Source: a bacterium
GTDB taxonomy: Bacteria > Patescibacteriota > Saccharimonadia > Saccharimonadales > UBA4665
DNA: 54,312 bases
Direction of reading: 5' to 3'
Assembly (NCBI GenBank): GCA_021783725.1
Contig: JAJXTN010000008.1
Span: forward strand, 1-54,312
Position numbers and translations under genes: made by a program. Positions 36,930 to 48,209 of the stretch are shown piece by piece. The notes under the pieces were generated by a model. That model worked only from the letters and a program-made list of their open reading frames with translations, made no database searches and was not told the origin of the DNA. The first letter of the stretch is position 1. Each line of letters opens with the position of its first letter.

Positions 36930-37175
36930 ATGTACTACTTTTATATCTTGTATTCGCAAATAGATAATGGGTACTACTACGGCTCGACTTCGAACCTTAA
37001 GAAAAGACTGAATGAACATCAACAAGGTAATGTTCCTTCTACATCGTATCGCAGACCACTAAATCTCGCATACTACGAAACTTATACAACTGTTGTTAGC
37101 GCTAGAAAGCGTGAAAAACAAGTTAAAAATAGTAGTAGTATCAGAGCCGCACTGCATAAACGATTTGATTCTTAG
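36930..37175 (+). CDS. GIY-YIG nuclease domain protein, copy 1
   Basis: An 81-residue stand-alone GIY-YIG domain. The paired motif is YFYILYS ... YYYGSTSNLKKRLNEH, giving the catalytic Tyr and Arg, and the Glu is in KREKQVKN. Such mini-proteins of the UPF0213 type are abundant in CPR genomes; they may cut DNA, but activity is rarely shown. It precedes the tRNA-Lys locus with its 3'-end copies, and a second copy lies after it. Confidence 0.88.
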   Translation: MYYFYILYSQIDNGYYYGSTSNLKKRLNEHQQGNVPSTSYRRPLNLAYYETYTTVVSARKREKQVKNSSSIRAALHKRFDS

Positions 37176-37270
37176 GGGGGAAATCGAATATCTGTAATAA
37201 TTCCGGAATTTGTATTAGTTAGCCGGATTATCGCAGAAAAGTACATTTCACAACCCGTTCGACTCCTAGG

Positions 37271-37303
37271 GGGCCAGCCCGGCCTCCCTGCGGGAAGCCG
37301 GGC
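37271..37303 (+). repeat. Hairpin between a duplicated tRNA-Lys 5' heptamer
   Basis: GGGCCAG at 37271-37277 is repeated as the first seven bases of tRNA-Lys (37300-37306). The 22 bases between form a hairpin with the ends: GCCCGGC/GCCGGGC (37277-37283, 37297-37303) and TCCC/GGGA. It looks like a small palindromic insertion with a 7-bp target duplication, and its 3' arm overlaps the first four tRNA bases. Confidence 0.6.
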
Positions 37304-37376
37304 CAGTAGCTCAGCTGGTTAGAGCGTCTGCCTCTTAAGCAGAATGTCGTGGGTTCAAGTCCCACCTGGCCCTCCA
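37300..37376 (+). tRNA. tRNA-Lys (anticodon CTT)
   Basis: A 77-nt cloverleaf with encoded CCA. Acceptor GGGCCAG pairs with CTGGCCC, discriminator T. The anticodon arm TCTGC-CTCTTAA-GCAGA gives CTT. T-arm GTGGG-TTCAAGT-CCCAC. Its 3' end is copied twice downstream. Confidence 0.96.
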
Positions 37377-37414
37377 CGAAAAAAGACCTGCCGTGTGTAG
37401 GTCTTTTTTCGTGG
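37374..37414 (+). terminator. tRNA-Lys terminator starting in the CCA
   Basis: CCACGAAAAAAGACCT (37374-37389) pairs perfectly with AGGTCTTTTTTCGTGG (37399-37414). The stem begins with the encoded CCA of the tRNA. The same CCACGAAA ... TTTCGTGG ends are used after tRNA-Arg. Confidence 0.8.
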
Positions 37415-37437
37415 CTGAGTCAAGTGAGGCTTGGAGA

Positions 37438-37562
37438 CACGACATAGCAAATTTTCTGCAAAGAAAATATGCGTAATGTCGTGGGGTCGTCGACAAACTC
37501 ACGCGCAGGAGCCCCGGCTCCGAGCATGAGTGCCGTCGTGCGTTGTCCCACCTGGCCCTCCA
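37438..37562 (+). repeat. Second copy of the tRNA-Lys 3' part, T-loop replaced by an insert
   Basis: CACGACAT (37438-37445) is an inverted copy of ATGTCGTG (37476-37483), the tRNA variable-loop sequence. Between them is an AT-rich hairpin ATTTTC-tgcaaa-GAAAAT with flanking GCA/TGC. The tRNA copy then reads AATGTCGTGGG, is broken by a 59-nt insert (37486-37544), and resumes as GTCCCACCTGGCCCTCCA (37545-37562). The insert contains ACTCA...TGAGT and GGAGCC-cc-GGCTCC. The copy ends 186 nt after the tRNA. It cannot form a tRNA. Confidence 0.8.
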
Positions 37563-37647
37563 TCCTACTTCGCCAAGGCTTCGTAGGATTTGTAATCCTC
37601 ATTGGCACTAGTTTCGTAGGATTAAGTAATTCTTAAATAAGTAGGAT

Positions 37648-37675
37648 GCCCTCCTTAGCTTTAGCGACGGAGGGC
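37648..37675 (+). terminator. Hairpin terminator after the tRNA-Lys copy
   Basis: GCCCTCC/GGAGGGC arms around 14 nt, followed by TTATTATTT; just upstream of the second GIY-YIG gene. Confidence 0.55.
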
Positions 37676-37689
37676 TTATTATTTAAACT

Positions 37690-37929
37690 ATGTACTACGT
37701 CTACATTATAAGAAGTATCAACTATTCACAGATATATACTGGATGCACGACTGACTTAAAATCTAGAATTACGGACCATAATTCAGGAAAAAGCAAACAT
37801 ACTAATAAATTTAGACCCTGGAAGATGGTTAGTTATTCAGCTTTTACTACACTTAAACTCGCCAAAGATTATGAATCATACCTTAAAACCGGATCTGGCA
37901 TAGCCTTTGCCAGAAAGCATTTCCTGTAG
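37690..37929 (+). CDS. GIY-YIG nuclease domain protein, copy 2
   Basis: A 79-residue GIY-YIG domain: YVYIIRSINYSQIYTGCT holds both Tyr motifs, KSRITDHNSG holds the Arg, and KDYESYLKTGSG the catalytic Glu, as in the common UPF0213 form. TATTAT lies 7 nt before the ATG, so a leaderless mRNA is possible. It lies between the second and third copies of the tRNA-Lys 3' end, which suggests that it travels with them or exploits them. Confidence 0.88.
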   Translation: MYYVYIIRSINYSQIYTGCTTDLKSRITDHNSGKSKHTNKFRPWKMVSYSAFTTLKLAKDYESYLKTGSGIAFARKHFL

Positions 37930-37961
37930 CATCTGTAAAAATATACAATGGGGGTCTGCTT

Positions 37962-38012
37962 GGCAAAAGTAATTTTCTTTTGCCGACGAGGCAAGTCCCA
38001 CCTGGCCCTCCA
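37962..38012 (+). repeat. Third copy of the tRNA-Lys 3' end behind a hairpin
   Basis: A hairpin GGCAAAAG-taatttt-CTTTTGCC (37962-37984) is followed by 37992-38012, which match the last 21 bases of tRNA-Lys exactly, from CAAGTCCC through CCA. Confidence 0.8.
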
Positions 38013-47898: not shown

Positions 47899-47975
47899 GC
47901 ACCCGTAGCTCAGCGGATTAGAGTACTTGGCTTCGAACCAAGGGGTCGCAGGTTCGAATCCTGCCGGGTGCACCA
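47899..47975 (+). tRNA. tRNA-Arg (anticodon TCG)
   Basis: A 77-nt cloverleaf with encoded CCA. Acceptor GCACCCG pairs with CGGGTGC, discriminator A. The anticodon arm CTTGG-CTTCGAA-CCAAG gives TCG. T-arm GCAGG-TTCGAAT-CCTGC. Its 3' half is copied once downstream. Confidence 0.96.
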
Positions 47976-48035: not shown

Positions 48036-48165
48036 GCGACTTGTATTATGCGAATGCATAATACAGTAGTCGCAGGTTCGTCGTAGCGAGGACGCACGCA
48101 AGAGCTCGCTCTGAGCACGCCGTAACGAAGAAGGACTTTAGTCTGCTATCCTGCCAGGTGCACCA
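48036..48165 (+). repeat. Second copy of the tRNA-Arg 3' part, T-loop replaced by an insert
   Basis: GCGACT (48036-48041) is an inverted copy of AGTCGC (48068-48073), and between them is a near-perfect AT-rich hairpin TGTATTATGC-gaat-GCATAATACA plus a 2-nt bulge. The tRNA copy GTCGCAGGTTCG (48069-48080) is broken by a 67-nt insert (48081-48147) and resumes as ATCCTGCCAGGTGCACCA (48148-48165, one base different from the tRNA). The insert has an AGAGC-tc-GCTCT hairpin. The copy ends 190 nt after the tRNA. Confidence 0.8.
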
Positions 48166-48209
48166 TCCTCCGTCGCAGACCCATTTCGGATCAGCTATGG
48201 AGGGTTTTT
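48166..48209 (+). terminator. Terminator-like hairpin after the tRNA-Arg copy
   Basis: CCTCC/GGAGG arms followed by G and five T. It suggests that the copy is transcribed, or that a transcript crosses it. Confidence 0.5.

Follow-up and report, generated by a model that had tools for sequence, protein, structure and literature searches.

Very small GIY-YIG nuclease genes and hairpins at the edges of RNA genes in Patescibacteria look like a little-known mobile element that spares its host gene

The window, that is, the whole stretch of 54,312 nucleotides analysed here, is contig C17 of a genome of 843 kb (97.8% complete, 19 contigs). At its tRNA-Lys(CTT) gene, two genes for mini GIY-YIG nucleases are found together with hairpins, palindromes and partial copies of the tRNA itself, arranged as follows:

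36930-37175, + strand: mini GIY-YIG nuclease gene A, 81 aa, 5'-side type
37162-37179, + strand: end of ORF A, 13/18 identical to the repeat at 37256-37273
37256-37273, + strand: second copy of the ORF A-end repeat, close upstream of tRNA-Lys
37278-37302, + strand: hairpin CCCGGC..GCCGGG, between a copy of GGGCCAG (tRNA nucleotides 1-7) and the 5' end of tRNA-Lys
37300-37376, + strand: tRNA-Lys(CTT), intact
37377-37411, + strand: terminator-like hairpin, immediately 3' of the tRNA-Lys CCA
37421-37445, + strand: degenerate antisense copy of the tRNA-Lys T-arm/3' end
37475-37488, + strand: sense copy of the tRNA-Lys T-stem 5' strand (variable loop to T-loop)
37489-37544, + strand: structured module at the T-loop position within the tRNA-Lys 3'-half copy
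37545-37562, + strand: second copy of the tRNA-Lys 3' end, 18/18
37563-37588, + strand: left-end palindrome of the GIY-YIG element, with a core TTCGCCAAGGCT common to loci of genomes G235, G061 and G202
37647-37675, + strand: second palindrome TGCCCTCCTTAGCTTTAGCGACGGAGGGC, 5' of ORF B
37690-37929, + strand: mini GIY-YIG nuclease gene B, 79 aa, 3'-side type
37962-37984, + strand: right-end hairpin GGCAAAAG..CTTTTGCC
37992-38012, + strand: third copy of the tRNA-Lys 3' end CAAGTCCCACCTGGCCCTCCA, 21/21, beginning in the T-loop

The preliminary description of this DNA had placed GIY-YIG genes on both sides of tRNA-Lys, and the two reading frames (36930-37175 and 37690-37929) do lie there, on the tRNA strand. 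Its third, exact copy of the tRNA 3' end is likewise confirmed over all 21 nucleotides, behind the hairpin at 37962-37984. The 18-nt end of tRNA-Lys occurs three times in the window and not once on the opposite strand. Since the repeat at the end of ORF A recurs close upstream of the tRNA, the sequence suggests that ORF A formerly adjoined tRNA-Lys and that a later insertion of about 94 nt separated the two. A copy of the tRNA-Lys 5' end was looked for upstream of ORF A at this locus and was not found.

Both proteins match the Pfam GIY-YIG profile (E = 7.6e-15 for A, 2.6e-16 for B) and retain the residues that are invariant in the family (Y5, Y16, G18, R26, H30 and E62). The match spans residues 1-69 of 81 in A and 1-67 of 79 in B, and by this extent neither has a separate DNA-binding region beyond the catalytic domain. 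Their only solved-structure relative by sequence is the single-domain GIY-YIG protein UPF0213 (PDB 1zg2, E = 1.9e-5), for which this analysis found no link to RNA genes. Named relatives of the window GIY-YIG gene come from Gracilibacteria, Yanofskybacteria and Spechtbacteria; together with the size and composition of the related genomes, they suggest a placement in Patescibacteria/CPR. The window genome contains five mini GIY-YIG loci, plus one match within a 506-aa frame that fits UvrC. The copy on contig C19 is apparently decayed, with two TGA codons in frame, and a further gene on C3 lies 378 nt upstream of tRNA-Arg(CCT). Alongside the genes on C3 (L003/L037) and C5 (L004) we observed tandem or dispersed repeats, for example TGTCATCCCGACCGGAGTGGAGGGATC, of a family that differs from the one at tRNA-Lys. 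At two loci of Gracilibacteria (L071, L072), the GIY-YIG reading frame continues through one in-frame stop codon; TGA encodes glycine in Gracilibacteria, which would account for the read-through.

An alignment of the mini GIY-YIG proteins matched 257/380 genomes of the phylum, with a maximum of 14 copies per genome. From this match list a sample of 40 loci was drawn, mostly with 8 kb per side. In this sample, which was ranked by a profile partly made from RNA-adjacent members, 24/40 GIY-YIG ORFs lay within 200 nt of a tRNA or tmRNA gene, compared with 53/625 neighbouring ORFs (odds ratio 16, p = 1.5e-14). All 24 were on the same strand as their RNA neighbour, mostly less than 100 nt away, and the tRNA density near GIY-YIG ORFs fell from 1.7 per kb to 0.04-0.2 per kb beyond 200 nt. 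RNase P RNA genes were also affected: one ORF abuts such a gene (L120), and three lie at or inside one (L042, L092, L073). Furthermore, an independent query returned tRNA-adjacent GIY-YIG genes outside the CPR, at a Chryseobacterium tRNA-Asn and a WOR-3 tRNA-Ser. A replicate ranked by the general Pfam profile gave 7/30 loci near a tRNA, again all on the same strand, which confines the link between GIY-YIG and RNA genes to particular subfamilies. An association of all mini GIY-YIG genes with RNA genes is rejected by this replicate and by a clade (..LTG) whose ORFs end in ..LTG at the CCCCGTTAGAGA palindrome. The preliminary description had staked its proposal on an enrichment in related genomes; for tRNA genes this enrichment is strong, strand-consistent and clade-specific, and at many loci it is accompanied by partial tRNA copies across the ORF.

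Comparison of these loci revealed two architectures. In the 5' type, the tRNA is copied from nucleotide 1 as far as the D-arm or the anticodon loop, and this copy, whose D-loop often holds a palindromic hairpin, is followed by the ORF and then by the full tRNA; several of these ORFs stop inside the tRNA 5' end, such as ..ATAGGGGCGTAG at tRNA-Trp. In the 3' type, found at L123, L155 and L141 as well as in the window, the full tRNA is followed by a palindrome right after CCA, the ORF, a hairpin, and a copy of the tRNA 3' end that starts in the T-loop or T-stem. Because the partial copy across the ORF belongs to the same tRNA, one complete tRNA is retained in both. A far-side tRNA copy above control was absent at several GIY-YIG loci. 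The 3'-type elements do not all share one upstream palindrome pattern: only 3/10 carry it by a tight definition, although the core TTCGCCAAGGCT does recur. By this scheme, the window tRNA-Lys would bear one element of each type, and both types also stand together at a tRNA-Gly of genome G132. An empty site was found for tRNA-Lys(TTT), which in G063 carries a GIY element of about 350 nt, with the leader and nucleotides 1-25 duplicated, and in G099, of the same genus, lacks it.

Several loci display more drastic rearrangements. The anticodon loop of tRNA-Val(CAC) in G099 (L311) is split by an insert with inverted repeats, within which lies a complete tRNA-Val of the same anticodon; the insertion apparently supplies its own replacement gene. 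In G063, a tRNA-Ala copy interrupted by hairpins lies beside an intact tRNA-Ala, and in G370 (L091) a pseudo-copy of tRNA-Lys, several of whose loops hold hairpins, is found between a GIY-YIG ORF and an intact tRNA-Lys.

The nuclease clades tend to match the insertion side. On a weakly resolved tree, the 5'-side label required 14 changes versus 24.9 when shuffled (0/500 as low), the 3'-side label 13 versus 16.6 (6/500), and membership of the ..LTG/CCCCGTTAGAGA-palindrome clade 3 versus 11.4. Gene A falls with 5'-side members at tRNA-Trp and tRNA-Lys, a group whose ORFs abut the 5' ends of these tRNAs in other genomes, and gene B with 3'-side members and Gracilibacteria. The ..LTG clade (L044, L074, L097, L108, L111, L114, L117, L119, L147 and L152) has no tRNA near. 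At L074 the final codons of the ORF lie inside the palindrome TCTCTAACGGGG / CCCCGTTAGAGA, and clade and palindrome are a possible nuclease-repeat pair.

The copies of tRNA ends extend well past the GIY-YIG loci. Own 3'-end copies within 500 nt downstream were found for 20/39 tRNAs of the window genome and own 5'-end copies upstream for 4/39, counts to be read as lower bounds, since the strict detector scored 0/36 in genome G004 despite the presence there of R1, a T-loop module described below. When tRNAs were matched against the flanks of other tRNAs, the copy rate was 0.3%, which excludes chance; every copy evidently comes from its own tRNA. The 3'-end copies that the preliminary description had singled out at tRNA-Lys are thus real, and its view was too narrow, as about half of the tRNAs of the genome have them. 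Downstream of a tRNA the usual order is a terminator hairpin, a degenerate antisense T-arm copy, a hairpin, the T-stem 5' strand, a structured module, and finally the T-stem 3' strand with acceptor and CCA. Over all genomes scored, 30/41 of the 3' copies begin in the T-loop (p = 5e-11), and 14/21 of the 5' copies end at nucleotides 12-22 (p = 0.001), a further two ending at 35-36. In 33% of cases, versus 7.5% of shuffles, the 5' copy is followed by a hairpin whose stem has at least 6 bp, and palindromes were observed within tRNA copies at the loci sampled. At tRNA-Leu(TAA) and tRNA-Leu(CAA) of the window genome (L033, L035), long near-identical repeats TATAAAATGCCTCGGC..TTGCCAGTGGCAA lie downstream in differing order, which suggests recent copying between tRNA loci.

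Many of these copies have no ORF. The comparison locus in the window is tRNA-Arg(TCG), with the following features:

47899-47975, + strand: tRNA-Arg(TCG), comparison locus without an ORF
48069-48080, + strand: sense copy of the T-stem 5' strand, GTCGCAGGTTCG
48081-48147, + strand: T-loop module of family R1, 75 bits
48148-48165, + strand: copy of the tRNA-Arg 3' end, 17/18
48166-48209, + strand: palindrome TCCTCCGTCGC..GCTATGGAGGG, right after the CCA of the tRNA-Arg copy

None of the GIY-YIG matches of the genome lies at this locus, in agreement with the preliminary description, which had reasoned on this ground that the nuclease, if the link is real, acts in trans. Two results favour action in trans. 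ORF-less kin of the palindromes of the window element occur right after CCA at four other loci, namely at tRNA-Glu(CTC) and at the copies of tRNA-Leu(CAG), tRNA-Leu(GAG) and tRNA-Thr(CGT). Moreover, end copies were found at 50/178 tRNAs in six genomes with a mini GIY-YIG gene versus 7/131 in eight genomes without one (p = 1e-7, a value that ignores phylogeny). Against it stands R1, the commonest T-loop module, which is present in 28/60 relatives, including many genomes of the family whose only GIY-YIG matches are UvrC-sized; no resident mini GIY-YIG is therefore needed, at least for the maintenance of R1. Genome G216 also has copies at 5/12 tRNAs and no mini GIY-YIG match, and together with R1 it leads us to reject the idea that tRNA-end copies strictly require a mini GIY-YIG gene in the same genome. 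Some ORF-less copies, though not all, are clearly kin of the GIY element, as judged by their palindromes, and mobilisation of all of them in trans is only partly supported.

The same observations bear on the possibility that tRNA flanks are passive landing or tolerance zones, where GIY-YIG genes and hairpins, moved by other machinery, settle at a harmless site with transcription. Many palindromes and R1 do occur at tRNA flanks in genomes that lack mini GIY-YIG genes, and GIY-YIG genes occur elsewhere too. We nevertheless consider passive settlement unlikely, since the strand bias is strict, the copies are anchored exactly at tRNA ends and break in the loops, ORFs end within tRNAs, RNase P RNA genes carry insertions, and the side of insertion is clade-specific.

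The structure of R1 raises a second alternative, namely that the structures downstream function in cis as RNA elements of the tRNA transcription units, serving processing or read-through control, and not mobile DNA. R1 sits in the T-loop of a copied tRNA 3' half, framed by the T-stem and acceptor of its own tRNA, and consists of stacked stems around CGCA..GAG(A/C)A together with a GGAC..GTCC hairpin. Its pairing is conserved, with compensatory changes in 12/19 pairs, and its position is near-constant, almost all of the best matches lying 73-105 nt downstream of a tRNA; both speak for a cis-acting RNA. These matches are nevertheless spread over at least 13 isotypes and are patchy between genera, R1 recurs at the same anticodon at near-chance frequency by our own count, a terminator-like hairpin stands between it and the tRNA, and other modules occupy the same place. 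A cis-regulatory role thus appears somewhat less probable still than passive settlement. Lastly, we give little credence to duplication by replication template switching at terminator or tRNA hairpins, with no nuclease involved and GIY-YIG as a coincidental passenger, which predicts the degenerate antisense copies seen after the terminator at several tRNAs (sense, hairpin, antisense, sense) but not the homology of modules between tRNAs and between genomes, with its compensatory base changes, nor entire ORF-bearing elements present or absent between congeners.

Known systems offer partial parallels. In T-even phages, the free-standing GIY-YIG homing endonuclease SegB is encoded between tRNA genes (PMC2988022). 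Mapping of its cuts yielded the motif RAWTSGAAC, with peaks within tRNA genes, and SegB co-localises with tRNAs in many phages (PMC13096335). In our reading, the reverse complement of this motif, GTTCSAWTY, would correspond to the T-loop consensus, where most of the 3' copies described here begin. The comparison with homing endonucleases drawn in the preliminary description therefore seems apt, SegB being a GIY-YIG homing enzyme of tRNA arrays (PMC13096335) whose motif, so read, matches the T-loop consensus. The elements share with SegB the GIY-YIG gene with conserved catalytic-domain residues, its place among tRNAs, the target point, and its position as a neighbour of the target in the same orientation; like free-standing homing endonucleases, they can be absent from an otherwise syntenic allele, as at tRNA-Lys(TTT) of G063 and G099. 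Unlike SegB, they are chromosomal in Patescibacteria and their proteins of 79-81 aa consist of hardly more than the catalytic domain; they also have palindromic ends, duplicate part of the tRNA, come in 5' and 3' types, target RNase P RNA and have kin that lack an ORF.

Palindromes and RNA-gene targets are also features of the Rickettsia palindromic elements, short palindromes in RNA genes that tolerate them, such as tmRNA and RNase P RNA (PMC2229807). Those elements are described there without a linked nuclease, whereas some of the present elements include a GIY-YIG gene and duplication restores the tRNA. Insertions into CPR rRNA genes share both the hosts and the targeting of RNA genes; they encode mostly LAGLIDADG homing proteins, with many group I and II introns, mostly at the top or base of stem-loops, GIY-YIG being sparse and judged to lie outside homing spread, and tRNA is absent from that paper (PMC11270868). 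In contrast to these, the tRNA here is contiguous and no intron is present: Rfam detected neither group I nor group II introns at the window locus and 34 related ones, and an intron-encoded homing endonuclease is rejected. At 50-450 nt, the elements are too short to hold a gene for a tyrosine integrase such as serves tRNA-targeted integrative elements; an integrase, if involved, would have to act in trans.

Taken as a whole, we regard it as probable that both GIY-YIG genes of the window are mobile elements of the homing type with a single domain, which land at or within genes for folded RNAs (tRNA, RNase P RNA, tmRNA) and regenerate their target. The nuclease would cut the T-loop or D-loop of the tRNA gene, or a cruciform of it, as SegB cuts at GTTCSAWTY; repair would then copy the element in, and the tRNA end would be regenerated by duplication of the stretch between the cut and the gene boundary. 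ORF-less palindromes may use the same nuclease, and the ORF-less copies at other tRNAs could be insertions that hit the same target points and are either decayed or non-autonomous. The proposal that GIY-YIG is the mobilising or targeting factor of the tRNA-associated elements thus gains from the enrichment, the strand consistency and the link with clades, and it falls short for R1, which thrives without a mini GIY-YIG. More tentatively, and with the odds in our view somewhat against it, the nucleases could define a phylum-wide class of mobile elements in which a GIY-YIG protein made up of the catalytic domain only recognises D-, anticodon and T-loops of tRNAs and RNase P RNA, inserts palindromes, leaves the gene regenerated or replaced, and also acts in trans for palindromes without an ORF.

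A link with RNA genes was unreported in the literature found on GIY-YIG with palindromes, on Patescibacteria and tRNA, or on UPF0213, within a scope of mainly open-access journal articles. In these reduced genomes, very small elements seem to have invaded the tRNA genes time and again, duplicating parts of them or replacing them. If it is the GIY-YIG proteins that do the moving, they would rank as minimal homing nucleases; how palindromic elements move in RNA genes could then be tested, and the odd tRNA fragments and pseudo-tRNAs of Patescibacteria would have an explanation. Should the phylum-wide class hold true, palindromic elements in RNA genes, whose known example is that of Rickettsia, would gain a mover.
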